Source: Syntrophomonas sp. (GTDB lineage Bacteria; Bacillota; Syntrophomonadia; Syntrophomonadales; Syntrophomonadaceae). From it: DNA of 64,000 bases. This document shows, piece after piece, positions 31,060 to 63,409 of this stretch; the first letter of the stretch is position 1; each line of letters starts with the position of its first letter. The notes under the pieces are model-generated. The model was not told the origin of the DNA and did no database searches. It saw nothing but the letters and a program-made list of their open reading frames with translations. The DNA is taken from assembly GCA_016841425.1 (NCBI GenBank), contig JAENZE010000014.1, positions 1-64,000 of the forward strand, read 5' to 3'. The translations under genes and the position numbers were made by a program.

Positions 31060-31116
31060 AGCTTAGATAATAATTATGTCGAGCGCTCAATCAAGCCCTT
31101 TGTTATTGGGCGTTAA
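31060..31116 (+). pseudogene. IS66 transposase scrap
   Basis: The frame reads LDNNYVERSIKPFVIGR before a stop, matching the conserved C-terminal catalytic region (DNN...ER.IKPFVIGRK) of IS66-family transposases. Nothing else of the element remains in the gap 30930-31146. It marks an old insertion between the Gabija unit and the peptide-maturation cluster. Confidence 0.75.
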
Positions 31117-31146
31117 AAGGTCCAGTTTCAATAATGAGTTTGAACT

Positions 31147-35619: not shown

Positions 35620-35622
35620 ATG

Positions 35623-37104: not shown

Positions 37105-37198
37105 TTTAGACCTCTTCCCTTCACTATAAGTCCCCTGGACAAACTAGGAGCCCGACTTGCATCGACCTCCTAGTAAAACATAATTATCTTAATATAGT

Positions 37199-37333: not shown

Positions 37334-37334
37334 G

Positions 37335-37622: not shown

Positions 37623-37639
37623 TCAACTTACCTCAATTC

Positions 37640-38653: not shown

Positions 38654-38685
38654 TTAATAACCTCCGAAGTGTCTGATATTCAAGC

Positions 38686-39660: not shown

Positions 39661-39679
39661 AACTCTCCCTCCCCTGCGT

Positions 39680-40498: not shown

Positions 40499-40531
40499 CT
40501 CATTAGATCGTACCTAAGCGTTTTTCGTTTC

Positions 40532-42571: not shown

Positions 42572-42594
42572 TCCCGCCTCGCTTTCGGTGCATA

Positions 42595-42673
42595 GGGGTC
42601 AGGCCTGACATTAACATTTACTTAATGGTAAATATCAACACTGACATTAGGTATCAATGTCAGGCCAGACCCC
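42595..42673. repeat. REP-like palindrome between pglZ and brxL
   Basis: ggggtcaggcctgacatt (42595-42612) and aatgtcaggccagacccc (42656-42673) pair with one mismatch, and ctgacatt/aatgtcag gives an alternative smaller hairpin. The outer motif ggggtcagg recurs at 60618-60659, so it is a dispersed repeat. It fills the only sizeable gap inside the BREX core. Confidence 0.8.
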
Positions 42674-42676
42674 ATA

Positions 42677-45229: not shown

Positions 45230-45243
45230 AATTCCTCCGCAGT

Positions 45244-48200: not shown

Positions 48201-48780
48201 TAACCATGGTTTGGAGAAACGAACCTTCTTTCAGCAGGTTATCAGGAAAGAGTATTTCTGAATGATCTTCAATTTTCTCAAACAAAAACGGAAAACATTC
48301 ATTCAGGCTGTTGCACTGCTTGATCAGCATATATTTAAACAGTTCATTGTTGTCATTTTTCTCTTTAAAATCAAACACTATCTCCCGCTCTATATCCAAA
48401 TCAACATTAAGAGCTTCCCGTAAGATATCAGGTTCAACGCTGCCGGGCAAAGTGGAAGATAATACTCTTACCCCGGTGGGCAGGAAATTATTGATTTCCA
48501 TAAACCGCAAAGCGCAGAAGCGGTTAAACCAGGTGTAAGCGGCCTCTTCCATCACTTGTGAATAACCTTTGGTATGTATCTGCTTGATCAGATTATTGCG
48601 CTGTTTTACCTGGACATTACTCAAGGGCTTCCCATTTATGTATATGGCATCACTGGCTTCGATCTGAGCTTCTTTTACCTTGTCCTCAGTAATACCGATC
48701 TCATAAGCTTTTTGCTTTACTCTCTCTATAAGTTCATTACGGGCATTAACCGCGAAATTCTTCAAGATGGATTTATTCAT
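45244..48780 (-). CDS. pglX: BREX type 1 adenine methyltransferase PglX
   Basis: The 1178-residue protein has SAM-binding motif CDPACGSGHMLVYAF (~300-314) and catalytic NPPYMGN (~478-484), marking an N6-adenine DNA methyltransferase, followed by a large C-terminal target-recognition and coiled region. PglX methylates one strand of a non-palindromic site, so BREX can tell host from phage. All motifs appear intact and I see no frame interruption, unlike the phase-variable pglX genes of some strains. It starts 41 bp after brxC. Confidence 0.93.
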   Translation of the reverse strand: MNKSILKNFAVNARNELIERVKQKAYEIGITEDKVKEAQIEASDAIYINGKPLSNVQVKQRNNLIKQIHTKGYSQVMEEAAYTWFNRFCALRFMEINNFLPTGVRVLSSTLPGSVEPDILREALNVDLDIEREIVFDFKEKNDNNELFKYMLIKQCNSLNECFPFLFEKIEDHSEILFPDNLLKEGSFLQTMVNTEFIPEADWRDVEIIGWLYQYYISEKKDQVFADLKKNVKINKENIPAATQLFTPHWIVRYLVENSLGRLWMLNHPESKLIEKMEYYIKPEQEEFDFLKITSPEEIKICDPACGSGHMLVYAFDLLYAIYEEEGYLLTEVPGLILEKNLYGIEIDERAGELAAFALVMKARQKYRRFFRKPVQPNICVLENIQFDKDELKNYKEEIGIDLFTASLFPTLGQFEEADNFGSLIRPELSDVNDILQLLESKNVADNLFLNKTHQKVLQALRQVDYLSPKYHVVIANPPYMGNRSMNERIKVFAQDNYPDGKSDLFAMFIERNLDLAVKHGLEAMITMQSWMFLSSFEKLREEILNRKTILSMVHLGARAFDSIGGEVVSTTAFVIENAQNAEYKGAYLRLVAGNCEADKEAELKANRFKPYRVSAIDFKKIPGSPIVYWVSERLLASFENGIPLGEFADVKRGMTTSNNERFLRFWPEVNNEKVFRGAKNADEALASHAKWFPYSKGGGNRKWYGFMEFYINWEYSGRDVIEFAKTINKSYTRTIVNIDYYFLPSVGFSYITSGPFSMRWLPEGCLYDSGGPGVFSTREKRKYILACLNSAPSMIILKLLNPTINLQIADVIRLPIPLYEVLSKNRFFYKEIDNLISLAKSDWDSYETSWDFSILPLLKPEYHQSTIHETYNDLRNHWREMTLEMQRLEEENNRIFIEAYGLQDELTPEVPLSEITLTCNPYYRYGGDRAEEELEALLLHDTIKEYISYGVGCMLGRYSLDKEGLVFAGGEFDSAQYNTFAADRDNVIPVLVEDYFKDDIVTRFVDFVRLTFGTEKLEENLDLIADTLGRKASESARDSIRRYFVNDFYKDHIQTYKKRPIYWMFTSGKEKAFNCLIYLHRYQQDTIATVRTEYLHRLQEALEVEKQHLQRIIDEEAGSKAARTAIKNIAKLDKQILELKKYEEIIHHYADMRIDLDLDDGVKVNYAKFDELLAKIK

Positions 48781-48821
48781 CTGCGTATCACCTTTCTAAT
48801 CCGGATATATGATGTATACTG

Positions 48822-51800
48822 CTACTTGAATCTTATAATTTTGTTTCCATTTATGAGTGCCTTGAGCTTTTGTCTTAGCTGATCAATATACTTATCTACA
48901 TCCTGCTCGGTTTCCAGCTTATGATGTACTGCCAGTTCTTTATATTCCAGTACATGAAAGGCTGGTTCTTTAACTTCAGTTTTACCGCTATGATCTTTTT
49001 CCTTATTCCTGGTGATAGCCTCATCGATTTCGGCCTGCACCTGATCCCTATAAGTCGTGCTCTGTACTATGGCCGCATCCAGGCGCTCAAAATTCTGGCT
49101 ATTCTCTATATAGTGATATTTTTCCGTATACCACTTTTCGATTTTCTCCCGGAAATGCTGCTGTTGCTGTTCACTCAGACCGTAAGAACCTGCTGCACTT
49201 ATTAAAACATCATGGTCCTGCTGAACAGCAGCCCTGCTCGCATTTTTCTTTTCCTGCAGCAGTTCATCAAAACGCTTCTCCAGCCAGGCAGTCAGGTCGG
49301 GAATTTGAATAATTTTCTTATATGGTGCCGGATCATCAATAATAGCCTGGAGTTCAGCAGTTTTACTGATAAATTCGTCTTCCTGCAGATAGGTCCGATT
49401 GGTATTGATACGCTTTATCATGTCCAGACCTTTATCAAATATATCCTTTTGATTGGCAAAGAAACCCTCTACCAACCTCATATCTTCATCCCAATCCAGA
49501 AGGTCATCCTGATATTCTTTAAGTTTACCCAGCAGAATTATATGATCATTTTTGCAGTGTTCTATTTCTTTAAATATAGACAAACCCTGTTCGATCAAAG
49601 CTTCACCCGGATATTCTTTCCCTTTATACTGGCTAAGATATTTCTCATGCAGCTCCAGGCTCTTTTCCCTGAATTTGTCCAACAGGTAGTTTATCAGTCC
49701 ATCTTCATCCACCGGTAGGTTTATTTCATTGAATAGTTCTTTACTTAGTTCACGCGCTACCTTGAGCTGTTTTTCATCTATACTGATCCGTTTTTTTATG
49801 ATAAGTTTTTCTACTTCCGTCTTTTTACGCAGATAGGCTGGAATATTCTGATCCGCAGGTTCCAGGTAGCTGCCCTGGTAAAGCAGTCGCAATTTTTGCT
49901 GCTTAAAAAGTCGAGCTATTAATCCGGCTATATCGATTTCCCGCCAGCCATAGGGATCGGTTTCAAATTTATCCAGCAGGTTTTTCATGGTGATCTGTAA
50001 ATGCTTGGCATCCTGCAGATCTATATATGACATAATTTCTTCTGAGGCCAAATGATTAGGATCTGAACTCTGCCCCATCAGAGTGATTTGCTCTATTTCC
50101 GTGTTAAGAATTTCCCTTATATCATTATCACTATCCAGAAACTCAGTGATATAAGGAAGTTTAAAATATACGCTTTCAACCAGTAATTTAAACCCGCTGT
50201 TAATGCGTTCTCTGGAGTTCGAACCGGAAGGTTCTATTTTTTCGCCGCTGGCATAATAGGTACCCTTAATAATAGCCTCTTGCAACATGTTTTTCGCTCT
50301 TTTCCTGCGTTGGGCGGCTTCCTCTTGTTTCTCAATAACTATTTTCTTCAGGCTGGCGGGCATATTCTCCTGTTTTTTAACTTTGTCAAAACGCTCAATC
50401 TTTAGAGCTTCCTGCATCTCTTCAAAATAATCACTGTAATCGTCCAAACGAATGATCAGATCGTTGCTTCCCGCAGAAGCCATTTTGAGCTCAGCTTCAG
50501 CTGCGTCATAGTCATCAGAGGCCCGGGTAAGCAGCCGCAGTCCAATTCGAGCAGTCTGGTTGCCCAGGTTACTTTCATCTATTTTCCGGTTGAAAGGAAT
50601 CGGATAACGTTTATTATACTGATACTTCTGGTCATCATAGATATCATTAAAAATATATTTGCCAATAGCATCAACAACAGCAGAAACATCAATCAGCGTG
50701 TTTTTTATTTCCCGATTGACATCCTGTTCATCATCAGTTAAGAAGCGGTACTCATCCGCATTTTTCTGGACATAATTCTGGGATATCAGCCGGTTCAGGG
50801 ACTGTTTGATGGCAGTCTTGAGGATCAATTTATCGTCATTTATACTGGAAAGCATGAGGGTGGCAATGTTATCCAGATTAGCTGGAATATCGCCAATATA
50901 TCGTATTAAAAAGAGCAGTTTCAATACATCAACATCATAAGGTTCAAGTCCGTATCCCTGGCTGGCACTCTCTGCTGAACGAGTAATAACCCGCTGGATG
51001 CTTCCATCTAGAAATTCGTGCACGGAGTCGTAAAAAGAGTGAAAAGGAACCAGGACTCCCGGTTCATAGTCAGCCACTTTCTTGGCGGCATCCTGGAAGG
51101 CAGACAGCATGGAACGTTCCCCTTCAGATAAGTGTTTTCCGCTGGCTCCATGCCGCCGTATCTGGTTAAAGACCTCCTGCAAGAGTCGAAATTGATAAGG
51201 TACAAAGGGATAAGTGGCTATGAACTCTTCCTCACTATTGTAGCCCTGGAGATCCAGAACGGTTCCTTCGGAAAAATGAATCAGGTTTTTTAATACGGCT
51301 GAATTTTCATGGTAAATGAGACTCAGTTTATCCTTACCAAAGTCGTTTTTTTCTAAAATCCTTTTCTTTATAACCTCATCTACCGATGCGGAAGATAAAC
51401 TTAATCTGGTTTTGAAACGACCCTGTATCTTGGAGAAATCGTTACCTTTTACAGGGGTAACCGAGTCAATATCCTCCTGAGAGGTAACGATAACCCAGGC
51501 TTTACCTTTACAGTGTGTCCCCAGATCCTCGGCTACTGTCTGCAAATTGATCATCAGGTCGGTATCATCCCCAATATACTGTCCGATTTCATCTACCAAA
51601 AATACCAGGTGAAAATTCTTTCCCTTACTATCTATATAATCTTTAACATCTCTAGCAAATTGTTCGATGCTGATATTAGGACCGTTATTATGATTAAACC
51701 AGTTTCTGGCACTTTGTTCTGACATCCCGGTGCTTTTGATTAAGGCTTCAACTACAGCATCCTCATCAAAAAGAAAACAGCTGCGACGGTCCAGCCAGGG

Positions 51801-52379
51801 TTCTCCTTTTACCGAGGCAAAAAAGTCCTGGTATTTTTCCAATACCCCTTCCTTGCTCAGATATTTTTCTAACTCTGCAACTTTTAGGTCGTCACCATAA
51901 TAACCCAGGTGGTCGTAAAACACCTTGACAAACACTTTTAAAATCGCATGTTTATCTGTTTTTATTCCCATGGGGCTTTTAGAATCGATGTTAAATAAAA
52001 TGGTCTCAGATTGTAAACGGGCTGTGCGCTGCATATCAGCATAGACTACGGAATCCGCTACCTTTTCCTCAAATAATTCAATCGGCTTTCGGCCTTTTAT
52101 TTCTTTATTCTCTAACAGATATGAAAGTATTTTGAGAAAGTGCGATTTACCTGAACCAAAGAATCCGGAAATCCACACTCCCATTTCATCGGTAAATCCG
52201 TCTATACCTTTTTGATAGTTTTGATAAAATAGGGAAAGCCGTTTTGAAAGTTCCCGGGTAACTACGTATTCCTCTAATTCCTGAAAACGAGTTTCTTCAT
52301 CATCCTGAGCTACCTTTATAACCCCTCTGATTTCCCTAGTGATACTTTTGTTGAACATTTCCCCAACCAGCATTGCCAT
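48822..52379 (-). CDS. brxC: BREX type 1 ATPase BrxC
   Basis: This 1185-residue protein is a STAND/AAA-type P-loop protein with Walker A ISGFFGSGKSHFLK at ~68-81 and the LVDEIGQYIG Walker B region at ~259-268. Long helical and coiled regions follow, ending near residue 1185 in LKALINGNKII. BrxC (DUF499/PglY-like) is essential for BREX. It follows brxB by 15 bp. Confidence 0.92.
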   Translation of the reverse strand: MAMLVGEMFNKSITREIRGVIKVAQDDEETRFQELEEYVVTRELSKRLSLFYQNYQKGIDGFTDEMGVWISGFFGSGKSHFLKILSYLLENKEIKGRKPIELFEEKVADSVVYADMQRTARLQSETILFNIDSKSPMGIKTDKHAILKVFVKVFYDHLGYYGDDLKVAELEKYLSKEGVLEKYQDFFASVKGEPWLDRRSCFLFDEDAVVEALIKSTGMSEQSARNWFNHNNGPNISIEQFARDVKDYIDSKGKNFHLVFLVDEIGQYIGDDTDLMINLQTVAEDLGTHCKGKAWVIVTSQEDIDSVTPVKGNDFSKIQGRFKTRLSLSSASVDEVIKKRILEKNDFGKDKLSLIYHENSAVLKNLIHFSEGTVLDLQGYNSEEEFIATYPFVPYQFRLLQEVFNQIRRHGASGKHLSEGERSMLSAFQDAAKKVADYEPGVLVPFHSFYDSVHEFLDGSIQRVITRSAESASQGYGLEPYDVDVLKLLFLIRYIGDIPANLDNIATLMLSSINDDKLILKTAIKQSLNRLISQNYVQKNADEYRFLTDDEQDVNREIKNTLIDVSAVVDAIGKYIFNDIYDDQKYQYNKRYPIPFNRKIDESNLGNQTARIGLRLLTRASDDYDAAEAELKMASAGSNDLIIRLDDYSDYFEEMQEALKIERFDKVKKQENMPASLKKIVIEKQEEAAQRRKRAKNMLQEAIIKGTYYASGEKIEPSGSNSRERINSGFKLLVESVYFKLPYITEFLDSDNDIREILNTEIEQITLMGQSSDPNHLASEEIMSYIDLQDAKHLQITMKNLLDKFETDPYGWREIDIAGLIARLFKQQKLRLLYQGSYLEPADQNIPAYLRKKTEVEKLIIKKRISIDEKQLKVARELSKELFNEINLPVDEDGLINYLLDKFREKSLELHEKYLSQYKGKEYPGEALIEQGLSIFKEIEHCKNDHIILLGKLKEYQDDLLDWDEDMRLVEGFFANQKDIFDKGLDMIKRINTNRTYLQEDEFISKTAELQAIIDDPAPYKKIIQIPDLTAWLEKRFDELLQEKKNASRAAVQQDHDVLISAAGSYGLSEQQQQHFREKIEKWYTEKYHYIENSQNFERLDAAIVQSTTYRDQVQAEIDEAITRNKEKDHSGKTEVKEPAFHVLEYKELAVHHKLETEQDVDKYIDQLRQKLKALINGNKIIRFK

Positions 52380-52394
52380 CCCTCCACAACTCGT

Positions 52395-52970
52395 CTACTT
52401 TATTAACTGAAAAGCACGATAGTAATTATCATCATTAAAACGATTAAACAGCCTTAAGGATTGTCCATCGTAAGTTCCCGGGAAAAACATAATAACGGGT
52501 ACCCGGTCCAATACATGGAATAAATTATTTAGTATATTATGCGAACGCATAAATGGATAAACTTTACCTACTCCGGTTATAAAAACTACATCACCGGGTT
52601 TCTGGTCATATTCCATTCTGGCAATATATGCATCAGGGCTGGCGATATTGGCCAGGGCCTCAAAAAGCCTGTCCCTGCCTTTATTCGCCTCCATCTCAGC
52701 TACCTGATCAATAATGTTTTTATCTCGTGCAATATCCAGTAGGATTTCAAACAGGTCATATTCTATGATCCTACGGTTGGAAGCTTCAAAGCTAAACTCT
52801 TTTTTAATATGCTTCACGTAGTCTCGGACCAGGAGTTCTTCGGCAGGATCATAATCAAATATGTAAAAACCGATTTCATTTCCCAGCCCTTTATTCTGAA
52901 TAAAAGCCTCTGATTGAATTTTAGGTATAATCTGATCCAGGCGTTCTTTTATATTTGGCATGTTCAACAT
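52395..52970 (-). CDS. brxB: BREX type 1 BrxB (DUF1788)
   Basis: The 191 residues match the DUF1788 family: KERLDQIIPKIQSEAF at the start, FYIFDYDPAEELLVRDYV, DVVFITGVGKVYPFMRSH and VIMFFPGTYDGQSLRLF. BrxB is a small partner needed by type 1 BREX. It begins 9 bp after brxA. Confidence 0.92.
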   Translation of the reverse strand: MLNMPNIKERLDQIIPKIQSEAFIQNKGLGNEIGFYIFDYDPAEELLVRDYVKHIKKEFSFEASNRRIIEYDLFEILLDIARDKNIIDQVAEMEANKGRDRLFEALANIASPDAYIARMEYDQKPGDVVFITGVGKVYPFMRSHNILNNLFHVLDRVPVIMFFPGTYDGQSLRLFNRFNDDNYYRAFQLIK

Positions 52971-52979
52971 CTCCTAGTA

Positions 52980-53582
52980 TTATATTGTTATGCCCAGAGA
53001 TTTTAGCAGAGCAAGTTCCCCCGCTGCCTCTATATACCGGATTACATCAGTATCAAGCCCAGGTCTGTGCAGGGTACAACCATCGCGATCATCCAGTATG
53101 CCGGCTTCGGTGAGCATTCTTAGCAATACCTGTTTTAATTTCTTGATAGTATCGTCTCGCCAGCGGGCAACGTCTTCGCTTTGCTCCCGTTTTTCCAGGA
53201 AAAACTCGTTCATGTCCTTTTTATCCAAGGCCAGGTTATTGGCAGCAAATTTTTCTCCGACAACCTCGTTTACGAATTCCATTACAAGTCGATTGGACTT
53301 CACAATGGCATAAAGGTTAATAATTTTTGCAGTTTCAGAAGGTTTTTCCAGCAGGTACTGCAGCATGTTTTCATCTAGTACCTGTAACCTTTTCAGTGCT
53401 GCTCTTACCCTTTTGGGTATACTTTTTTCCGTTGCATATTGGAAGAGATTATTATTTATTACCTCTTCCAGTATTTCTTTATCATTTAATCCGTTCAATT
53501 TAAGTCTTGCCACCTGCCTGGTTTCATAAAACAGAAAAGGCTCTCCGGTTAAGGAGGCATTGTATTTCAAGGTTTTTTTCAC
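52980..53582 (-). CDS. brxA: BREX type 1 BrxA (DUF1819)
   Basis: This DUF1819 protein, ~200 residues long, is a small DNA-binding helical protein: KYNASLTGEPFLFYETRQVA near the start, later QYLLEKPSETAKIINLYAI and VVGEKFAAN. The frame is open to a GTG at 53591, but I choose the GTG at 53582. GGAG lies 8 bp before it, whereas only one base separates GGAG from the earlier GTG, and family members start close to the KYNA motif. It is the first gene of the BREX core; the CoiA-like gene ends 67 bp upstream. Confidence 0.9.
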   Translation of the reverse strand: MKKTLKYNASLTGEPFLFYETRQVARLKLNGLNDKEILEEVINNNLFQYATEKSIPKRVRAALKRLQVLDENMLQYLLEKPSETAKIINLYAIVKSNRLVMEFVNEVVGEKFAANNLALDKKDMNEFFLEKREQSEDVARWRDDTIKKLKQVLLRMLTEAGILDDRDGCTLHRPGLDTDVIRYIEAAGELALLKSLGITI

Positions 53583-53649
53583 CGCACACACTCCGAATTA
53601 TTTTTATATGGTCAATCACCCTTTTTATTATAGCTTACTCTCTTGCCTA

Positions 53650-54792
53650 TCAGCCATTTCTCAAACAGTTCTTACAGGTTCCTATTCGCACATTTAGATT
53701 ATCAATTACGGGCATTTCACTGCTTTCTACCATTCGACCACAGATTTTGCATTCAAATAACCCGTTTAAAGGATTCGAGAAGCTGTTTCCCCAGCTGTTT
53801 GATTCATATGAGTCAGTTTTTTGCTTGTCTGTATTGTTATTTTTAGGCTTATATGTTAATGAAACTGGATGACTTTTTTTCTGAGCCGACCTTCTTTTTT
53901 CTTCTTCTTGTTTTATGATCTGTTGCTGCCTCTCAAAATCATCATTAAGGACTTTCAAAACCCTCTTAGCCTCTCTGTATTGTTCTCCCAATACTTTCTC
54001 TTCTTCAAAATACCATACTATCCCCAAATGCTTCGTGAGGTTAAATGTTACGTCATGTAATTTACCGGATACAACTTCACGGTAATCGTGCAGAGTAGTG
54101 CATGATGCTTTATTAGTTAGTGCCCTTACTATTTTTAGAAGCTCATTATTTATATCCAAATACATTAAGGAACCCAGTGAACTCAAGTCCGTGGGCAGAG
54201 AACGCCTAAGTCTTCCCTTAACAATTTTTTCATACCAGTCACCTATATAGAACTTATCTATGCCTGTTGTTTGTATGAGGAGATTATCTGGGAAGTTTAC
54301 TTTTAAATAACCGTCCTGTTCATTATATCGTTCGGCTGAGATAAGCCAATTTGATTTAATAATGTTTTCTTCATAAAAATCTATCTTGTCTTGAATTTGC
54401 TTTTTCTTTTCTAATCCACAATAGAAATTAACTGCCCAATTGACATCTTTATCAAAACTAAGAAACACATCTGTTATAAGTCCGGGCGTGTGTTGGTATT
54501 CTATCTCTACTCTCCATTTATCGCCATACTTGGTTTGCATGAAGTCATACAGCATTTTTTTGCCTAACATATGTTCTTCGGATTCATGATTCCCAGGACA
54601 ATTACTATAGTGCTTATGTGCAAAATGATGGATCATTACCGGACCGAACTTGCATATTATTGGTTCCTTACAAATTGGACATAGAGCTTTTGCATTACAC
54701 ATGTCTCTAAATTCTTCTTTGCGGTTGTCCCACTGTTTATCGGTGGATATTACTTTTTCTCCATTCAATAATGCTGTGAGCATAATACTCAT
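53650..54792 (-). CDS. CoiA-like protein with N- and C-terminal zinc fingers
   Basis: This 380-residue protein begins with a CoiA-type zinc finger (CPICKEPIICKFG near 38-50, then HHFAHK near 55-60) and a nuclease-like core (SEEHMLGKKMLYDF near 71-84, GLITDVFLSF near 104-113). A Lys/Gln-rich linker follows, then a final zinc ribbon FECKICGRMVES ... GTCKNC. CoiA family proteins act in competence and are predicted PD-(D/E)xK enzymes. It is the first gene ahead of brxA in the same direction, so it may be an accessory BREX gene. I see no BrxR/WYL regulator. Confidence 0.65.
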   Translation of the reverse strand: MSIMLTALLNGEKVISTDKQWDNRKEEFRDMCNAKALCPICKEPIICKFGPVMIHHFAHKHYSNCPGNHESEEHMLGKKMLYDFMQTKYGDKWRVEIEYQHTPGLITDVFLSFDKDVNWAVNFYCGLEKKKQIQDKIDFYEENIIKSNWLISAERYNEQDGYLKVNFPDNLLIQTTGIDKFYIGDWYEKIVKGRLRRSLPTDLSSLGSLMYLDINNELLKIVRALTNKASCTTLHDYREVVSGKLHDVTFNLTKHLGIVWYFEEEKVLGEQYREAKRVLKVLNDDFERQQQIIKQEEEKRRSAQKKSHPVSLTYKPKNNNTDKQKTDSYESNSWGNSFSNPLNGLFECKICGRMVESSEMPVIDNLNVRIGTCKNCLRNG

Positions 54793-55144
54793 CCTATTCC
54801 ATGCTTAGTAAATAACCATCTGTAGGTACTAAATATTACAGAACAGCTGGTTAACACTATATAATGCCATTTTCCACATTATAATGTTTTCTCTCTTTAT
54901 TTACCAAATTCCTCTATATTGCCGAATCTGCGAGATTATTGTTATCTTTCCAGTAAGAAAAATGAAAAAGATTTTATATCAGTAATACATTGTATTAGAT
55001 GATAAATTGACTATCAGAGAAAATTTCTTCCATTCTGCAGATATGCTGTATAGTTTCATATTCTAATTAACCTACAGAAAGAATTGAAAAAAATAACCAG
55101 GAGCCTATAAGTATGCTCTTGGCTATTTTTATTATGTTATAAAC
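54793..55144. other. AT-rich intergenic region upstream of the CoiA/BREX unit
   Basis: I see no gene in these 350 bases. The AT-rich composition and position make it the likely place for the promoter of the minus-strand CoiA-BREX transcript. A pair of complementary strings (gagcctataagtatgctc, 55101-55118) forms a hairpin followed by a T-rich tract that could end plus-strand transcription. Confidence 0.45.
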
Positions 55145-55534
55145 TCATTTATGTACCCAGTTTTCTTTTTCGAATACATCCTTAATCTTTTTATAAACTT
55201 CTCCCGGTGTTGCAGAATAGACTCGATGAATCCCTTTTTCGAACACCCGTTCGTTCTCGCTGATTATACTTGGGGATATCATTGAATCAACAAATCTCCC
55301 AATTATTGAGTCCGCTAAGTATACTCGGGTTAGTCCAACATCTTGTTTGGGGGCTGGGAATAATATTAGGCCGGCATATGTGCATGCTGAACATAATTTG
55401 TCGACTCGAACATCTGTGAGTCTGCCTATCTCAAAAAAGGTTTTAAGCTCATCCCTGGTAAATAATCTAAAATCTTCACCAGCATCCACCAAGTCCTGGG
55501 CCAATTTTACTGCTCTTGTGTAGTCATTTGCCAA
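55145..55534 (-). CDS. Hypothetical protein
   Basis: The 129 residues form a mixed alpha/beta protein with RLFTRDELKTFFEIGRLTD and ENERVFEKGIHRVYSATPG segments and no recognised family. An AGGAGG site lies before the ATG. It follows the HTH gene by 105 bp on the same strand and may be its partner in control of the island. Confidence 0.55.
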   Translation of the reverse strand: MANDYTRAVKLAQDLVDAGEDFRLFTRDELKTFFEIGRLTDVRVDKLCSACTYAGLILFPAPKQDVGLTRVYLADSIIGRFVDSMISPSIISENERVFEKGIHRVYSATPGEVYKKIKDVFEKENWVHK

Positions 55535-55639
55535 TGCACAAAGACCTCCTTCATTATTTAATTTGTTTAAGCTATCTAAACGGGTCGTAATATTTGTGCA
55601 ACTGTGAAGGAGTGTTTCCCCGATATAAATGAATTCATC

Positions 55640-56047
55640 TCATGAGTGTTTGTACTTATTTTCACCATGCCTTTTTAGCAAATATTTCCATTCATCGTTG
55701 TCCCTTTTCTCTAATTCATTCAATTTTTCTTTCAAATACAACGTTTTTTTATAAGGGCCACCGTATTTTTTCTCAAAAAACGCTATTTCATCACTTAGAA
55801 TATCTAATTCGTCATCCCTGTTTATTTTTTGATGTTGGCCATGTTCTTCGCACCACATCCTTACGACATCCGTTACTGAAATAAGTTCATCCGTTTGAGC
55901 ACGCCACATAACATTCTCGTCAATACTTATCGCCACAGGAGTTATTATCTTGATGTCCATAAAACGCCCTTGGGAGATCCACAGAAATATCGTATTTTCT
56001 GAAACCCCGAAATACTTAGCTAATTCCTGCACTTTATATCTGCGCAC
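55640..56047 (-). CDS. Small HTH (MerR/excisionase-like) DNA-binding protein
   Basis: Residues 3-30 make a MerR/excisionase-type helix-turn-helix (VQELAKYFGVSENTIFLWIS). The rest is charged and helical, ending EKRDNDEWKYLLKRHGENK. At 135 residues it is longer than typical Xis proteins. It could be the recombination-directionality factor of the island or a regulator of the downstream defence genes. GGGAGAG precedes the ATG. Confidence 0.6.
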   Translation of the reverse strand: MRRYKVQELAKYFGVSENTIFLWISQGRFMDIKIITPVAISIDENVMWRAQTDELISVTDVVRMWCEEHGQHQKINRDDELDILSDEIAFFEKKYGGPYKKTLYLKEKLNELEKRDNDEWKYLLKRHGENKYKHS

Positions 56048-57145
56048 ACTCTCCCCTCCATTCTTACTTTCTCGTCATAATTACTTCTATGAGTATACCT
56101 ATTAAATTCAACCATGTCAATATTTGTCTTATTTGTTAATATTTTGTCATATTTTACTCTATTCTGGTTAATAAGTGTCTGTATTGCATATTTTTCTGTT
56201 TTACAATAGGGAGCATTCCTGTAATGCTTAACATAGGTCTTTGAAAAAAGAGACGCCGTTCAATACAATTGAAACCCCAACGAAAGCATTACCCTAAAGG
56301 AACTGAAATAGCCGAGCTGTTGTTGGAAGATAAAGCCGCTATGCTCCCTCTACCGACCAAACCTTTTGATATTGGGTCGTACAATAAATACGCAAAGTCC
56401 GTTATGACGGCAATTTTTATTCAGCTTCTCCACAGGTAGTTGGTAAAGAGATAGACATAAAACTGGGGGTACATCAGGTTGATATTGTTAATGAGCAATA
56501 TCAGTAAGACACAAGCGACTGTATGGTCAGGAACAGAAAATAATGGACTGGCCTGCCCTATCTTAGTACCTTAGCCAAAGGCCCAATGCCTTGAAATACA
56601 CCGGCAATATATACACCTGGTCTAGGGCCTGCTATGATGTTTTTCCTGAAAGCAGGTGAGTACAGATGAAAGAACTGATTAAAGACTACTGCAAGCAATT
56701 GCGCTGGGGAAACCCTAGTAAAAAACTATCCCGATATTACAGCGGATACCCATGAAAAGTTTCTGGTTAAACTTTTGGAAACGGAAGTGAAAAGACGAGA
56801 GTTAAACCGTAAAAATCGCACAGAGCCAGCTTCGATGTCATTAAAACCTTTAATGGCTATAGCCTTGATCATATAGAAATACCAGCTTCTATCTCGGTAG
56901 ATGTTTTGAAAACTGCCGCATTGCTGAAAAGAAAGGAAAATTTGATACTTTACGGACCGGTAAAACCCATATGGCTACCGCCATCGGGGTGGAAGCATGT
57001 AAGCAAGGAAAGAGGTGCCAAAAATATTTCTCTCTTACCATTTCATACTAGAAGTCTTGTCTGGCTACTGAACTGCAAATGGTGCTACAACATCATAAAA
57101 TGTAATATGTATCCTACCTCAAAGGTAGGATCTAGCTTATTTGCC
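56048..57145 (+). pseudogene. Decayed IS21-family element (istA and istB scraps)
   Basis: At ~56270-56480 the plus strand keeps a piece of the IstA transposase (KHYPKGTEIAELLLEDKAAM, then LPTKPFDIG and YNKYAKS). At ~56666-57070 it keeps pieces of the IstB ATPase: MKELIKDYCKQLRWG, ITADTHEKFLVKLLETEVK, and a Walker-A-like LILYGPV followed by a frameshift into a KTHMATAIGVEACKQG sequence. Frames are broken at several points and no terminal repeats are clear. The first ~200 bases are AT-rich and empty. Confidence 0.75.
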
Positions 57146-57814
57146 CTATTCGAAAACCACGTCTAATCTATCTACTACTGCTATATCCGAGTTATAGACG
57201 GTAATTTTAATAATCAGGCTTTTTCCATTTTCCCAAACTACGCGACTCCCGTCTTTCATTACAACACAGGATATTGTGTAAAGCAGACATTTGTATCTAG
57301 GTATATTCCAATCCGATTTTGCAAACTGGCAATCAAATGGCTCAGGTCCACCCCAAAGATGTTCGCCATGTGCACCGAATGCTTCGAGTATACGGGTTAC
57401 GACCTTTGCGGGATAATATCTGTTTCCCCATTTATTGAATCCTTCTTCCATTTGCGTAATAGCTTTATCGCGTATATTTTCCCATATGGTTACAGGCCGC
57501 TCAAGCTTAAACTCGTCGGCAAGCCACTCTAAGTCTCCTACCGTCATAGAATCGTATTCATTCAAATATTCATCGTTATCTCCCATAATAATATCTACTT
57601 TTTCTTCATTTACTGAGACATGGCCGCTTCTTTTTAAGTAACCTTTATCTGTAATGAATAGAGTGTATGGCTGTTTAAAGTCTACAAAAGTTTTATTATT
57701 TAATTGGCAGTTTTCATACCCATGAACATATGACACTTGGGACGATTCCGCATACTTTCTCAGAAGAGTAATTAGTCTTTGGGAATAATAAATATAATCT
57801 TGATTATTTTTCAT
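57146..57814 (-). CDS. Hypothetical protein
   Basis: The 222 residues have no recognised domain. The N-terminal part (IYYSQRLITLLRKYAESSQ) is helical, and the C-terminal part is beta-rich with WGGPEPFDCQFAKSDWNIP and a VWENGKSLIIKITVYNSD segment. It starts after GGAGATG and lies between two IS21 remnants, so it may be a passenger gene of the island. Confidence 0.55.
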   Translation of the reverse strand: MKNNQDYIYYSQRLITLLRKYAESSQVSYVHGYENCQLNNKTFVDFKQPYTLFITDKGYLKRSGHVSVNEEKVDIIMGDNDEYLNEYDSMTVGDLEWLADEFKLERPVTIWENIRDKAITQMEEGFNKWGNRYYPAKVVTRILEAFGAHGEHLWGGPEPFDCQFAKSDWNIPRYKCLLYTISCVVMKDGSRVVWENGKSLIIKITVYNSDIAVVDRLDVVFE

Positions 57815-58649
57815 AATCTGACATCTCCTTTGATTTTAATTGATTTGGATTTATCCAGTATTAATGCATAAATAAATTAAATATTAATCACTATTCACCT
57901 CCTCAAGGCATTTCAAAACAAAAAAACAAACTAAGCGAATATATGTATACTAATAAAAGAAAAATTAGAAAATCAAGTAATTTTTGAATTAAGTTAAGGC
58001 AAAAATGTTAACGGTTGTTAAAGATAAATCGTTCCTCCCAAGTCTAAGCCCAAAGGAGATAGCATTATGTAGGTTACCCCAGGATGACTGGCAAAAACTG
58101 CCCGCCCGATAGTAAACACGAATATATTTAGATATCCAGATGGCTTGATCTATCTCGAACTTCAGTCTTGAAGAAATGGAACAGCTACTTGGAAGTAAGA
58201 AAGACCAGGAGCAATAAACTTGATAAACATTATGAGCTAATCAGGTCCTGGTTAATCAGATTTCCGGACATGACCAGCGCTCAGGTTTTGGACTGGTTGC
58301 GGGAACGAAAGATAGATGAAGGCGTTAGCGAAGAACAGTCAGAAACTACGTTAATTGAGTGAGAGAGGAGTGTGGTATTCCCCAAGTTAAATACATACGG
58401 TAATACGAAACACTTGACGAATTATCTACCGGGCTGCAAATGCAGATGAATTTTGGACAAATCACCTTACGCAGTTAATAATAAAGGAATCGTGGGAAGT
58501 TGGTGCCCCATTATGCGATTCCTAGCCAAATATATCACTTATGTAGGGCCGCTCCTCAATTAAGAGGAGGCGGCTCTATCGCATCTATAATTTGTGCTCT
58601 ACTTCTCGGACTCTTGCAGAAGTATTATTGTATAACGTCTTATTATCCT
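57815..58649. other. Intergenic region with IstA N-terminal remnant
   Basis: Apart from the IstA fragment at 58168-58362 the region holds no gene I can support. The first ~200 bases are very AT-rich and probably carry the promoter of the minus-strand hypothetical gene. Confidence 0.5.
58168..58362 (+). pseudogene. Second IS21 IstA fragment (N-terminal HTH part)
   Basis: The frame reads KWNSYLEVRKTRSNKLDKHY and then SWLIRFPDMTSAQVLDWLRE, which matches the N-terminal region of IS21 IstA transposases. It ends after 64 codons, where a full transposase has ~400-500. Confidence 0.7.
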
Positions 58650-59129
58650 TCACTTCGATCTACATCGTTTTTCAATTAATTTGCCCCTAGGCTGTAGCCT
58701 TCTTTCGTTAGAAATTATGTGGTTTAACAATTGGGTTATCGAGATATCCTCATCGATAGCCCTGTGAGCCAGATACTTTTGGTTTTCTGGTTCCAGTTCA
58801 TAGCTCTTGCGTCGGTTGACCAGGGCACAAGCTACTTTGGTTTGGTTTGGTTTGGTTTGTTGCCCTTCGCACTCAGCGCAATATGTGCCGTACCCCTTGC
58901 TGCGAACATATCGGTATTCCACCTCACTGTGTATATCCTCCCAATCATTATCCGCTGATAACTTATAAATCGCGAATTGTTGATGGCATTTGAAACACTC
59001 AACCCGTAGTTCCCGGTTTTCCTCGTTATACTTATACGAGGAAAACCGGGTTTTTATGGTTTCCGGGATATTAACAATATCGCCATTTACCATTTTCACA
59101 AATTTACGGCTTTTTTTAATGTTTTGCAT
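58650..59129 (-). CDS. Zinc-finger-like hypothetical protein with a slippery pentanucleotide tract
   Basis: The 159 residues include a CxxC...CxxC pair (CFKCHQQF near 48-55 and YCAECEGQ near 83-90), suggesting a zinc-binding domain, followed by a basic tail with RAIDEDISITQLLNHIIS. The coding DNA contains a (TTTGG) tandem tract at 58836-58859, right after the second CxxC. A change of one unit would shift the frame. The gene lies 36 bp upstream-adjacent to the tyrosine recombinase on the same strand and may assist it. Confidence 0.6.
   Translation of the reverse strand: MQNIKKSRKFVKMVNGDIVNIPETIKTRFSSYKYNEENRELRVECFKCHQQFAIYKLSADNDWEDIHSEVEYRYVRSKGYGTYCAECEGQQTKPNQTKVACALVNRRKSYELEPENQKYLAHRAIDEDISITQLLNHIISNERRLQPRGKLIEKRCRSK
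58836..58859. repeat. Pentanucleotide tandem repeat (TTTGG)4.8 in a coding region
   Basis: Four full TTTGG units plus TTTG lie inside the gene at 58650-59129, encoding TKPNQTK on the minus strand. Five-base units are not a multiple of three, so slippage would switch the downstream frame. Confidence 0.85.
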
Positions 59130-59165
59130 AATAGTTATTCCCCCTTATATTGGATTTTAATAAAG

Positions 59166-60083
59166 TTACTTTCTGTCTTTTATATAAACAGAAATTATAT
59201 CGCTTCTGTTTTTTCCATGTCCAAGCCATTTGCTCACTTCTTCCCCGGCTTCCTTCTTGGATAAACCCTGGGCTCTTAGTTCATCCCAATGCTTTTGCGC
59301 GGCCATTTTGCGAACGCTATGAATGGACGTTAGCGGATACTTATCTTTAATACCTACAGCGGTCATAGCACGAAGCAAATAGCGGTTTATGCTATCAGCC
59401 TTGATTCCAAAGACCTTATCGCCCCGAGCCCTTTCAATCAGGCTCTTCAGAAAAGGCAAATCTGCGGGCCTTACATCCACCCATCTCTCTCGACCGCCCT
59501 TCCCTTTGATGTGTATTTTCATTGCAACAGTATCGATATCGTCTACTATGCAACTCGATAATTCAGCGGCGCGATGCCCGTATATGCCAGATAATTCAAC
59601 TGCGCCCACAGCACGGGATTTGGAAGTACGCCCGTATTCCCGTATTTTCTCGAAATCAGACGGGTCCATGCTTTGCACACGTTGCAATACATTCGCTTTC
59701 TCTGATTCTGGAGCTTTTACATTACCCCGCCATTCCACGGTAACCTTGAAATACCGATTTACCAGGTCCTCCATTTTGCCGATACGGCTGACATAGTTAT
59801 TCAACGTATAGCGGCTTGAGGTTTTGGATTTTTCTTCAAGAAATTTATTCCAGTGTTCCGCGGTAATATCCTCGGCCATACGAACGCCAGGATACGCTGT
59901 TTTAAGGTACTGGTGCATTTGATGTGATAGTTTACAGAGATTTTTTCTCTCTGGAAAGCTGAATACTTTGCCTTTAGTTTGACCAGCATGTTTCAGAGCA
60001 TGCTTATCCATTTGGGTCCTGAACCCCCCTTCTATGGCACTATTAAACTGATACTTGATATTATGTCGTGACATTATCATCAC
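59166..60083 (-). CDS. Tyrosine recombinase/integrase
   Basis: This 305-residue phage-integrase-family protein has an N-terminal SAM-like DNA-binding domain (~30-130) and a catalytic domain with the full set: Arg in GIYGHRAAEL (~168-177), Lys in IKGKGGRERW (~194-203), HxxR in SIHSVRKMA (~255-263), His in WLGHGKN (~287-293) and Tyr in VYIKD (~301). The length fits simple integrases. No att repeat for it was found. The island ends point instead to the serine recombinase, so this gene may belong to a nested or older element. GGAGTGATG precedes the start. Confidence 0.87.
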   Translation of the reverse strand: MMIMSRHNIKYQFNSAIEGGFRTQMDKHALKHAGQTKGKVFSFPERKNLCKLSHQMHQYLKTAYPGVRMAEDITAEHWNKFLEEKSKTSSRYTLNNYVSRIGKMEDLVNRYFKVTVEWRGNVKAPESEKANVLQRVQSMDPSDFEKIREYGRTSKSRAVGAVELSGIYGHRAAELSSCIVDDIDTVAMKIHIKGKGGRERWVDVRPADLPFLKSLIERARGDKVFGIKADSINRYLLRAMTAVGIKDKYPLTSIHSVRKMAAQKHWDELRAQGLSKKEAGEEVSKWLGHGKNRSDIISVYIKDRK

Positions 60084-60537
60084 TCCTTTTATTGTTTATT
60101 AGTATCAGGTGATGGTTGCGATTGTTTCAAAACCTCATAGGTTCCGAAACAATCGCAACCATCCGGCCATCTTCCAGAGTCACAAGGCAGAGCCAAATTA
60201 GGGCTGACATCTTATTGCAAAACCATGAAAACGGGCCGTTCCCAATATGACCATAGGCTATAAAAAGATTAATCCATAAATCAAGTATATTTTTGAAAGC
60301 GAGGGGAACCTTTTTCCCAGTGAAAAGACTATCTCCAAATACCGATGGTAGCTGGATGTCTAAATGAGTGGAACCCTGATTTAACCCATACTAATTAATA
60401 CCCCTCAAATAGTGTTAGGCTATTTTAATGATTTTCATATTCTGCTGAATAGCTGCTAACCGTGGTTCCATGGCAATAGGAATATCTGTTTTTACCTTAA
60501 AAAGCAATAATTATTAGGTTGAAGGGTTATTCTGGCC

Positions 60538-60592
60538 GGCAAAGAGGAACTGCGCGTGTGTCTGAGCGACACCCGCGCAGTTCCTCTTTGCC
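60538..60592. repeat. Long near-perfect hairpin (25-bp arms, 5-nt loop)
   Basis: Arm 60538-60562 and arm 60568-60592 are complementary with one mismatch, loop tgagc. No T run follows, so a simple terminator is less likely. It may be a transposon end, a recombination site or a replication/transfer-associated structure. Confidence 0.8.
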
Positions 60593-60617
60593 TTGCTAGA
60601 TATATGCCCATGCCGAA

Positions 60618-60660
60618 GGGGTCAGGATTAAAGGCGCTGGGGCACCTTTAATCCTGACCT
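60618..60660. repeat. REP-like palindrome ggggtcagg family
   Basis: ggtcaggattaaagg (60620-60634) and cctttaatcctgacc (60645-60659) are perfectly complementary. The outer ggggtcagg matches the palindrome at 42595-42673 in the BREX operon. Confidence 0.8.
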
Positions 60661-61215
60661 GACAAACGGCTGCAAAAAAAATATCATCGGGGCAATACAA
60701 GTTTCAGTAAATATACAAGCCCCCACAAGGCGAGTACAATGTTAGCACGCACTCCTCCCCAAAATATGAAAGAAGCTATTGTGCGGAGACCAAAATTAAC
60801 TTGGTCCAATATCGATGCCTGGAAAACTGCAAATCTTTAGGAATTCTGTGGGAGATTTGTGCGGAACAATTACTTAAACATAATATCCCATGTACCGCTC
60901 CAGTTCCAGGCATAACAACAATGCAATGTGTGTAAAACCTTTATCGTCTTTTTAAAATCCTAACTGGGATGAACCTATGGTAAATAAAGAAACTTACAAG
61001 AATCAAGTATAAATTCTTAAGTTTTGCAATTTGTCCCAGTAATACTTGACTTGAGCTAGAAATATCTGGTACAAAAGAATATAAGAGCAGGCATTATTTT
61101 TAGTAGGAGAGCAGTTTACACACAAAATAGCTGGAGTTCATGTGATCGTAACGATAATCTTCTTACATTCTTAAAACTGAATACCTTATTAGTGAAAGAA
61201 AAGTGAAATGAAAGT

Positions 61216-61267
61216 AAAAAGTAAGTCGGTTAACCCTTGCCGCTATAAGGGTTAGTACTTACTTTTT
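61216..61267. terminator. Cruciform terminator before the recombinase operon
   Basis: aaaaagtaagt...aaccctt pairs with aagggtt...acttactttttt (61216-61238 with 61247-61267). T runs on both strands make it a bidirectional terminator that isolates the recombinase unit from the left. Confidence 0.65.
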
Positions 61268-61338
61268 TCATTTTCACTATCTTCAAATTGCCTGACTTAT
61301 AAAAACAGAAGGGGGGTTTGCATGGAGGTGGTGCCTAA

Positions 61339-61560
61339 ATGGCCAAGCTAATTAAGTTTGAAGCATCAGTTTCCCGAACTGAACTGACAGAAGCTAATTA
61401 TTCCACAAACAAGGTAAACATTCTGGAAAGCAGAGATTTCCGGGACGAGCAGGAGGAGGAAAGATTTCTTCTCCCAGCCTTGCGATTATTGGCAGCCCTG
61501 CACAAGATCCATCTGCAGGAGGCTGCCGATCAAAAATCTAATAGAAAGGAGAAATGCTGA
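61339..61560 (+). CDS. Small recombinase-linked hypothetical protein
   Basis: This 73-residue protein begins MAKLIKFEASVSRTELTEAN and ends in a Lys/Gln-rich tail, with no recognised domain. GGAGGTG lies ~9 bp before the ATG. Its stop lies just before the recombinase ATG at 61563, so the two are co-translated. It may help the recombinase or control its direction. Confidence 0.65.
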   Translation: MAKLIKFEASVSRTELTEANYSTNKVNILESRDFRDEQEEERFLLPALRLLAALHKIHLQEAADQKSNRKEKC

Positions 61561-61562
61561 TT

Positions 61563-63188
61563 ATGAATGCAGCAGTATATGCCAGGTACAGCAGTGACAA
61601 TCAAAATGACCAGTCTATAGACGCTCAATTAAACGCTATACACGATTATGCAAACAGAAATCAAATAACTGTAGTAAAAACCTATATCGATCGCGCTAAA
61701 TCGGCTACAACCGATAAACGGCCTGAATTCCAGCGAATGATCAGCGACTGCAAAATGGGCCTTTTTGACGCGGTAATAGTGCACAAACTAGACAGGTTCG
61801 CGCGAAATCGGTATGATTCCGCGCACTATAAGTATCAGATTAAAAAATGCGGACTAAAGCTTATAAGTGTTTTGGAACGCCTGGATGACAGCCCGGAATC
61901 CATTATGATGGAGTCGGTGCTGGAGGGAATGGCTGAATATTACAGCCGTAATCTGGCCCGAGAAGTGATGAAGAATATGAAGGAATGTGCCCATAAGTGC
62001 AGGCATTTAGGAGGAAGACCTCCTATAGGATACGATGTTAATCCCGAAACAAAACAATATGAGATAAATGAATATGAAGCTGAGATCGTTAAGACAATCT
62101 TTGCTATGTATTTAAACGGTGATGGTTATTCCCGAATAGTAAATTGCCTTAATGCCCAAGGTTATCGCACTAAGATTGGCCGACCCTTTACCGTCAACAG
62201 CATGCACGATATTCTGTCCAACGAAAAATATTCGGGAACCTATGTCTTTAATAGAACTACATCTAAAGATGCCAATAACAAGCGTAATAATCATCGATCC
62301 AAAAATGAAGAGGATATCATCAAAATCCCTGGAGGTATGCCAGCTATAATCTCGGAAGCAGAATATCAAAAGGTTAAGGACAAAATGGAGCAGAACAGGC
62401 ACAGAGCTGGAGCATATAAGGCCAAAGAGATATATCTTCTGTCAGGTCTGATTTTCTGCGGCGAGTGTGGGCAGGCTCTGGTTGGCAATTCCAGACGAGC
62501 AGGCCGCAGTAAGGAATTATATGTAACCTATCGCTGCAACAACCGATATAGAACACGCACCTGCGATAACAAGGAAATCAGACGGGAGTATATAGAAGCA
62601 TATGTATTGAGTCAATTGGAGGCCAAAATATTTAATGAAAAAAGACTGCCCCAATTGGCCAAACAGTTTAATAAATATATGCAGCAGCAGAACAGTGATA
62701 TTACCGTTAAAGCAGGTGCTCTGAATGGCCAGATCAGCCGACTGAATAAAGAAATAGCTGATATAATCCGTATAGTACGACAAGGCTGCTCTTCGCCATC
62801 CCTGGTGAGTGAATTGGAAAAGGCGGAAAAAGAAAAAGCTGGACTGGAAGTCCAACTCAAGCAGATTCTAAATTCTCAAAGTACTATACACATCGATGAA
62901 CAAACTCTTAAGAATGTTCTGGCAAATCATTGGGACGCTGTTATTAACAGAAATATCTCCGAATGCAAGCCCTTCATCGATCAATATGTTGAAAAAGTCC
63001 TAGTTTATGGAGACTATGTCAAAGTAGTCTTCCATCTCTACATAGACCTTGTTTCATTTGGTGGAGGCGGGGGGAGTCGAACCCCCGTCCGAAAGAATGA
63101 CCAGCCAGGTGTCTCCGAGCGCAGTTCGTGTTTTGAGTTTCGCTCAGCCGGCGCCCACGAACAGGCTCCTTCGAGCTATCCCCGATAA
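61563..63188 (+). CDS. Large serine recombinase running through the att junction into antisense tmRNA
   Basis: The protein has a resolvase-type catalytic domain (YARYSSDNQ near residue 6, catalytic Ser; later AVIVHKLDRFARNRYDS), a recombinase domain (GRPFTVNSMHDILSNEKYSG) and a zinc ribbon (FCGECGQALVG ... YRCNNR). A coiled coil (QISRLNKEIADIIRIVRQG) leads to a terminal strand KVVFHLYIDLVSF. From codon ~500 the frame reads GGGGGSRTPVRKNDQPG, which is the antisense of the tmRNA 3' half, and it stops after 541 codons. I choose the ATG at 61563 because AAGGAG is 11 bp upstream, while it is only 2 bp before the ATG at 61554. On a circle joined at the 12-bp repeats, the same frame would end after 521 codons. 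It is the probable integrase of the 37.7-kb island. Confidence 0.88.
   Translation: MNAAVYARYSSDNQNDQSIDAQLNAIHDYANRNQITVVKTYIDRAKSATTDKRPEFQRMISDCKMGLFDAVIVHKLDRFARNRYDSAHYKYQIKKCGLKLISVLERLDDSPESIMMESVLEGMAEYYSRNLAREVMKNMKECAHKCRHLGGRPPIGYDVNPETKQYEINEYEAEIVKTIFAMYLNGDGYSRIVNCLNAQGYRTKIGRPFTVNSMHDILSNEKYSGTYVFNRTTSKDANNKRNNHRSKNEEDIIKIPGGMPAIISEAEYQKVKDKMEQNRHRAGAYKAKEIYLLSGLIFCGECGQALVGNSRRAGRSKELYVTYRCNNRYRTRTCDNKEIRREYIEAYVLSQLEAKIFNEKRLPQLAKQFNKYMQQQNSDITVKAGALNGQISRLNKEIADIIRIVRQGCSSPSLVSELEKAEKEKAGLEVQLKQILNSQSTIHIDEQTLKNVLANHWDAVINRNISECKPFIDQYVEKVLVYGDYVKVVFHLYIDLVSFGGGGGSRTPVRKNDQPGVSERSSCFEFRSAGAHEQAPSSYPR
63059..63070. other. Right att-like site inside the tmRNA 3' end
   Basis: These 12 bases encode the tmRNA 3' terminus (CCGCCTCCACCA on the minus strand) and repeat at 25349-25360. 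The island joins tmRNA here without damaging the mature RNA. Confidence 0.75.
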
Positions 63189-63409
63189 GTTTCCCCTATA
63201 AGCCCCTCGAGAAAGAAGGCTTTAGGGTACCCTCACTAAGTGACGCCCTGCACTGAGCCGTGAGGATACTCAGCCGGACGAGCCGCTTAAGCGGCTAGTG
63301 CAAAATTATCTTCTGCAGTTATTTGTGTTTTTCGCCTTTTTATCGAGCTGGCGACAACTCGGCTCGCTGCCCAACTCACCTATTCCCCCGTCGAAACCTT
63401 TACGCCCCC
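63059..63409 (-). tRNA. ssrA: tmRNA (transfer-messenger RNA, ssrA)
   Basis: On the minus strand the RNA starts GGGGGCGTAAAGGTTTCGAC and ends with a GTTCGACTCCC T-loop arm and CGCCTCCACCA. The 5' GGGGGCG pairs with 3' CGCCTCC. The tag reading frame lies at about 63290-63325 and ends AEDNFALAA followed by TAA, as expected for a proteolysis tag. The resume codon upstream of ITAEDN is not certain. tmRNA with SmpB rescues stalled ribosomes. In this window it lacks a nearby terminator because the island separates it from the hairpin at 25255-25300; maturation by 3' RNases would still give a correct end. CCA is encoded. Confidence 0.95.

Follow-up and report, generated by a model that had tools for sequence, protein, structure and literature searches.

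A serine recombinase gene with a predicted attachment site in its 3΄ end and the exchange of its C-terminal tail at ssrA in Syntrophomonas sp.

Integrase genes that overlap their attachment sites

The directionality of serine integrases is attributed to a directionality factor and the coiled coil. Mx8 IntP is a tyrosine integrase, and the SSV-type integrases are tyrosine recombinases of archaeal viruses, the genes of which are cut near the 5΄ end. For Mx8, attP is described as lying inside the integrase gene, and the C-terminal end of IntP as being replaced on integration (Tojo et al. 1996; Magrini et al. 1999; PMC4383910, PMC6070905), and the integrated form is reported there to be still active, with altered specificity (PMC6070905). 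The gene of the SSV-type fuselloviral integrases is described as spanning attP and being split on integration (PMC4383910). In Dehalococcoides, DsiB is described as a CcrB-type serine recombinase located at ssrA, the gene of which overlaps the att site and has its stop codon beyond the island; its authors speculated that DsiB is fully functional only on the circle or with the 3΄ fragment of a neighbouring island (McMurdie et al. 2011, PMC3146451).

The window, by which we mean the whole stretch of 64,000 nucleotides analyzed here, contains a recombinase gene at ssrA that resembles each of these systems in part. As described for Mx8 IntP, attP would lie in the integrase gene and integration would change the C-terminus, whereas the window enzyme is a large serine recombinase and what is exchanged is a short tail that follows the catalytic, DNA-binding and coiled-coil domains. 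The SSV-type integrases share a gene extending across attP but differ in being of the tyrosine type and cut near the 5΄ end. With DsiB, the window locus shares both the ssrA target and the att-overlapping serine recombinase gene; however, the native tail was neither identified nor compared in that study, whereas here it was identified, is conserved, is predicted to fold, and is found in both states in near-identical relatives. The integrase of Moorella phage MCACPph1 (OR602863.1) is a 45% identical recombinase with an ssrA core; it is carried on a 20-kb phage genome, whereas the window recombinase is carried on a defence island. The integrated tail of MCACPph1 is GGGGGSRTPVRR, and joining its left end gives PLSIISLSKREEVYNLVQ. 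Mx8 IntP and the study of McMurdie et al. (2011) are precedents for the tail swap itself. Within an incomplete coverage of the literature, we found no paper on serine integrases that identifies a native tail as conserved and encoded across attP.

The island, its recombinase and the joined reading frame

The coordinates of the features are summarized in Table 1. The recombinase matched PF00239, PF07508 and PF13408 (Pfam; Resolvase, Recombinase and zinc ribbon, respectively) and contains the motif YARYSSDNQ, in which S10/S11 is invariant, while the Pfam search for a tyrosine recombinase catalytic domain in this protein returned serine recombinase domains only. A catalytic-serine Resolvase domain, a Recombinase domain, a zinc ribbon and a coiled coil are all present, as in large serine recombinases. 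PDB matches included the SprA and TP901-1 integrases, and the structural matches agree with this class. The best NCBIfam match was the SCCmec CcrB equivalog NF047343, yet it scored 195 bits against a cut-off of 900 bits. A 305-aa protein (59166-60083), which is also encoded in the island at a distance of 1.5 kb from the serine recombinase, shows weak similarity to XerA/XerC tyrosine recombinases.

Table 1. Features of the recombinase gene, the island and its target gene in the window
Feature	Coordinates	Strand	Basis
Large serine recombinase ORF, integrated state (541 aa + stop)	61563..63188	+	translation; Pfam; AlphaFold
Recombinase layout: Resolvase, Recombinase, Zn_ribbon_recom, coiled coil, final beta hairpin, GGGG linker, antisense-tmRNA tail			
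Replacement recombinase 3΄ end from antisense ssrA; tail predicted disordered	63071..63188	+	translation; AlphaFold
Core direct repeat TGGTGGAGGCGG, 12 bp, ssrA side	63059..63070	+	sequence; pattern scan
Second core copy, distal element end	25349..25360	+	sequence; pattern scan
ssrA (tmRNA), target gene, intact after insertion	63059..63409	-	ARAGORN
Mobile element, 37.7 kb, recombinase at ssrA-proximal end	25361..63058	.	core repeats; PADLOC and Pfam
Probable displaced ssrA terminator, inverted repeat AAGACGGTAT...ATACCGTCTT	25264..25301	-	read by eye
Native recombinase 3΄ end, (G)AYHMESIADRRDLYELFG + stop once joined to 63059/63060	25361..25418	+	in-frame joint; profile; homologue
Hairpin terminator just past native stop	25422..25447	+	RNA fold; G020 hairpin at same place

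In the core next to ssrA, the recombinase frame reads the GGG linker, and the same bases are antisense to the 3΄ end of the tmRNA, the tag of which is AEDNFALAA (ARAGORN). Four occurrences of this 12-mer were found in the whole 3.58-Mb assembly, namely the two element cores and two unrelated places. An intact target gene, a directly repeated copy of its 3΄ end on the opposite side of the element and an adjoining integrase gene are the marks of an island targeted to a tRNA or tmRNA gene. The island encodes a BREX operon (BrxA, BrxB, BrxC, PglX, PglZ and BrxL), a Gabija-like pair and other defence-like genes. The Gabija-like pair (27146-30929) lies beside the BREX genes and consists of a GajA-like OLD/TOPRIM ATPase (28962-30929) and a GajB-like UvrD helicase (27146-28984). 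A match to the Viperin model (pVip, 37640-38653) and a bSEFIR match (38686-39660) together occupy 37640-39660, between the BREX operon and a block of radical SAM, tRNA-synthetase-class-II-like and amidohydrolase/GNAT genes.

Insertion appears to have separated ssrA from its own terminator. The inverted repeat at the probable displaced terminator has a T-rich run on the tmRNA strand and is now 37.7 kb away from ssrA; this candidate was not among the calls of the consensus terminator scan. In another genome of the same genus (G019), an uninterrupted ssrA is directly followed by a terminator-like hairpin and T-run. The left flank of the window had no counterpart in the other genomes of the genus examined. 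A fragment matching part of the tmRNA tag region (95% over ~98 nt) was noted elsewhere in the genome, with no tmRNA gene call (G000:C5:89189-89287, L266; G021:C23, L263).

The original prediction held that the recombinase frame crosses the right junction into antisense tmRNA, and the coordinates, the translation and ARAGORN agree on this point: residues 500-541, GGGGGSRTPVRKNDQPGVSERSSCFEFRSAGAHEQAPSSYPR, are encoded by the antisense strand of ssrA. It also held that the same frame would continue to a stop at 25416-25418 if the cores were joined, with a strong terminator shortly afterwards. The sequence agrees with the first of these statements, since the joined ORF stays in frame (...SF followed by GGGGAYHMESIADRRDLYELFG), encodes 521 aa and ends with TGA at that position. 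A hairpin (AAAGGGAGGC-CGCA-GCCTCCCTTT) does begin at 25422, and the fold energy of the 34 nt from 25419 was -20.2 kcal/mol, although the consensus terminator scan did not include it in its calls; once the element is integrated, this hairpin lies 37.7 kb from the recombinase. However, the original claim that frame, stop and terminator would hardly coincide by chance was overstated, because 18 codons remain open by chance with a probability of (61/64)^18 = ~0.42 and the scan passed over the hairpin. The frame and stop alone are weak evidence for a native tail. The case goes beyond chance because the joined peptide is homologous to the native C-termini of relatives and because the tail, stop and hairpin are conserved in an element of the same genus.

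The circle joint of the element is predicted to read ...TTTCATTTGGTGGAGGCGGAGCCTATCATATGG. No contig or read contained this joint for the window element, and unflanked forms were seen for relatives. One candidate for a circular form, L018/L131 (G063:C43, in a MAG labelled Anaerovorax odorimutans), was rejected: its recombinase runs off the contig end, but its left flank is integrated. This contig was 99.96-99.99% identical to the window element and left flank over the two stretches compared (~13.7 kb in total), and, lying in a genome with a different tmRNA, it is probably misbinned or derived from the same population.

Native tails and the two states of the gene among relatives

Two scans, one of genomes and one of IMG/VR, supplied the relatives (80 loci each). 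The 3΄ end of the recombinase gene overlapped a tRNA or tmRNA gene in 25 of the 75 complete relatives from the genome scan (15 tmRNA and 10 tRNA) and did not in the other 50. We generated a native-tail profile from 19 C-termini of relatives located away from tRNA/tmRNA genes, and used 20,000 translated stretches as controls. The joined tail of the window scored 16.4 bits, a value that none of the 20,000 controls reached (99.9th percentile, 5.7 bits), whereas the integrated tail scored -2.3 bits. Other joined tails above the 99.9th percentile were those of G020 from the same genus (8.2 bits), Paenibacillus L024 (7.8 bits) and L021 (6.4 bits). The joined tail of MCACPph1 matched weakly, its 4.1 bits lying within the top 0.5% of controls, and the tail of G022, window-like by eye, scored at chance level in both profiles.

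Relatives located away from tRNA/tmRNA genes have other ends than the integrated window enzyme, and many of these ends combine a strand with a basic-plus-hydrophobic RR..L..L motif. The closest native homologue is Sporomusa L019, with the C-terminus ADAYHFSAEISRRKLLRLLLKAA, and the Ruminococcus relatives have TIRRGDLYELF-like ends (L076, ETISIRRGDLYELFDSR; L057, VKIRRGELYGLF). In the relatives, tails of the GGGGGSRTPV type were antisense tRNA or tmRNA sequence, and the case that would have spoken against the original prediction, such a tail away from a target gene of this kind, did not occur among them; the tRNA or tmRNA gene was confirmed by ARAGORN wherever the contig was long enough, several IMG/VR prophage records ending at the ORF. 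One relative, L015 on an Aneurinibacillus plasmid (49% identity), ends right after the hairpin of the protein and has no tail, so the tail is not required by every member.

Within the genus, an attL-like copy in G020 (C1:91397, minus strand) encodes a 22-residue tail, GGGGAYRFETIIDRTELYGLCK, of the same length as that of the window; its stop occupies the same codon, and a hairpin comes next. Past the hairpin there is no alignable sequence (22/60 bases), and deeper inside, an antitoxin-like region can be aligned (86%). In this genus, the same core was also observed to precede tails of a second type, (A)Y(P/S)FVCRN.VK..(K/T)D (G020:C18:12500, L013; G021:C88:95993, L120; and L009). The G020:C18 tail KYPFVCRNEVK..., which lies beside a 90%-identical recombinase remnant, was considered as a native tail and assigned to this second type instead.

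These comparisons bear on whether the two cores belong together. The left core at 25349 might mark an older or different island, and the joined frame would then fit by chance or represent the tail of a different recombinase; tandem ssrA islands do occur in the genus and its relatives (G020, L021), and the empty site of the source strain was not among the genomes compared. However, the tail fits the subfamily of the window recombinase itself, the only other genomic cores are unrelated, and the 37.7 kb between the cores make up a single coherent defence island that ends with the recombinase. We give this alternative a slight chance only, and treat the cores as the two ends of a single element.

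Both states of the gene were found in pairs of relatives in IMG/VR. L164 and L166 had no mismatches in the 1479 nt up to the core, after which L164 continues with GGGGPYLTQSTISLANYRRNVNK and a stop, and L166 with antisense tmRNA. L194 and L193 had no mismatches in 1477 nt and show the same split between an own tail and antisense tmRNA. L190, which is free, and L192, which is inserted at tRNA-Arg, differed at 26 of 1478 nt, and joining L192 to its own distal repeat gives the tail NGTPSPYPDIYATIKR with a stop, identical to that of free L190. Further joined tails, each with a stop, were obtained for L157 (tRNA-Gly; NGAGNSYHILCTTSLEDYRR), L178 (DGGGAYYFISTIDISYYRHLLTKC), L200 (VGGGEPCLIISLSIELKELYRR), L030 (DGGGEPYQSKITTDISGYRHKIYSR) and L153 (GGGEPYTISLTTNISSHRHNIH), and the same kind of end appeared at tRNA-Gly, tRNA-Arg and tmRNA targets. 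Scored with a profile of the free forms, joined tails were far higher than control peptides (Mann-Whitney test, P = 3e-9), a value to be taken as indicative because, among several candidate repeats, the longest or the one matching the tDNA end was taken by eye. Three of the 19 joined tails (G062, L077 and L069) were unlike any native tail, and the repeats used for them may be wrong partners. A scan of IMG/VR for the core plus GCnTAy found two recombinase joints in 80 loci, both already found among the relatives.

The joint, the homology of native tails and the paired states thus all place attP in frame within an integrase gene, with both forms meaningful. The profile homology and paired states also bear out the proposal that the free form encodes a native 521-residue enzyme, while after integration the tail is changed and the gene is without its terminator. 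At the level of sequence, the tail is conserved coding sequence and both forms of the gene occur in near-identical relatives. The arrangement is not unique to the window island: it applies to a family at many tRNA and tmRNA genes. Large serine recombinases were observed at genes for tRNA-Ala, Gln, Ser, Arg, Pro, Glu and Gly (L026, L034, L060, L061, L067, L068, L077, L082, L157 and L192).

We considered the possibility that the similarity of tail peptides merely reflects conserved recombinase-binding arms of attP. In the L164 subfamily, attP has 10-bp inverted arms, ATTGTGGATT...AATCCACAAT, in coding sequence on either side of the core, which encode I-V-D before it and S-T-I after it, and part of the tail conservation in this subfamily is accordingly due to DNA binding. 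In the predicted attP of the window, inverted-repeat arms were not above shuffles. However, the Y-R motif and the RR.DLYELF segments lie outside the L164-type arms and use many different codons (for the arginine of the Y-R motif, AGA, AGG, CGT, CGG and CGC), the window and Sporomusa tails share the motif although only 18/57 bases are identical, and the native tails of the profile come from elements away from tRNA/tmRNA genes. The position of the motif outside the arms, the varied arginine codons and the low base identity indicate that the tail is kept as a protein, so an origin at the DNA level alone is largely refuted and very improbable. Between the window and G020 tails, the counts for the three codon positions were 13, 12 and 12 of 19; given that there is no synonymous excess, dN/dS is uninformative for this pair.

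Predicted structure of the tail and possible consequences of its exchange

In the AlphaFold model of native L019 (assessed by block), the tail forms a third strand (residues 510-517, pLDDT 87) and a terminal helix (518-528, pLDDT 70), whereas the integrated tail of the window (approximately residues 501-541) has pLDDT values of 26-33. The native tail of this close relative is therefore predicted to be folded and the integrated tail of the window to be disordered. SprA of SPbeta, Bxb1, LI and phiC31 have the same large serine recombinase architecture as the window enzyme and were its best structural matches (Z up to 19), with rmsd values of 13-17 over 440-475 residues, a global deviation so large that the domain arrangement is not readable from these alignments. 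For these solved integrases (SprA/YokA, Bxb1, LI and phiC31), the alignments extended from residue 1 to approximately 492-512, that is, to about the core, and the structural aligner gave no match for the native tail, although a counterpart could still exist. Because the alignments stop before the tail, both forms would keep the whole known fold, and the exchanged part would be an add-on behind the glycine linker.

These observations suggest the following mechanism. The attP would lie in frame inside the 3΄ end of the element's own recombinase gene, in the linker that connects the final beta hairpin of the conserved fold with a strand-plus-helix tail at the C-terminus, and because of this position the tail would be replaced on insertion into ssrA. 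In the circular form, the gene would read through the core into the tail, the stop and the terminator, giving the native 521-residue enzyme. Crossover at the end of ssrA would cut the gene and move the tail and terminator to the far end of the island, and antisense tmRNA would complete the frame, giving the 541-residue enzyme with an unstructured tail. After insertion, ssrA would lack its own terminator and be transcribed antisense into the recombinase gene, which would lack a terminator as well; excision, which we infer for the window's own element, would restore the native gene. We regard this exchange, with its inferred consequences, as very probably the best overall explanation, and the structural switch of the C-terminus in itself as nearly certain.

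The functional effect of the exchange is much less secure. An alternative is that the overlap is passive, attP lying in the gene end as a result of integrase-attP proximity and genome compactness, with a tail that is real but dispensable and no switch. The tail-less relative L015, the wide differences between the tails of subfamilies and the lack of an aligned counterpart in solved integrases are consistent with this alternative. Furthermore, integrated forms either stop almost immediately in the tRNA (GGGGGT followed by a stop, in L040) or continue for tens of residues, and such variable length indicates that the replacement sequence is under no evident constraint. On the other hand, the strand and the RR..L..L or Y-R motif persist although the codons vary, and the tail is predicted to fold, which argues for a role of the tail in one state at least. 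Considering the one tail-less relative and the limitless variation of replacement tails, passive overlap is nearly as likely as a functional switch: we place it somewhat below an even chance, and a real functional effect of the tail swap at a little short of even.

If the exchange does have an effect, a switch between integration and excision activity, as the original prediction suggested, is plausible. Since neither form lacks any of the catalytic, DNA-binding or coiled-coil parts, the integrated enzyme, without its cap, would probably remain capable of excision when a directionality factor is present. The missing tail and terminator, together with convergent transcription from ssrA, might lower or bias recombinase output in the integrated state. 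The antisense-tmRNA tail itself might instead be functional and selected to alter the integrated enzyme; it is always present in integrated copies and is unlike the native tail. However, its length and sequence follow the host tRNA or tmRNA and the frame, and it is predicted to be disordered, and we consider this explanation very improbable.

More tentatively, a core in the linker before a strand-helix cap may serve as a general sensor of the integration state throughout a large serine-integrase clade. Each insertion at a tRNA or tmRNA gene would strip the cap and leave an enzyme that is poor at integration or reintegration, or dependent on the directionality factor; excision would re-arm it, and in tandem arrays the left end of a neighbour could supply the cap. 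If the gene product does differ between the free and integrated states, an additional DNA-encoded layer of control would operate in many of the phages and islands that occupy tRNA and tmRNA genes. Prophage-derived database entries for these integrases would then carry a wrong C-terminus of antisense tRNA or tmRNA, and cloning them as genome-engineering tools would require the correct protein to be rebuilt across attP. The speculation made for DsiB in 2011 is now directly testable.

Tandem islands were also observed at tRNA/tmRNA genes (L244, L193/L237 and L132), in which cores with in-frame tails follow one another, so that an upstream recombinase can borrow the left-end tail of its neighbour.
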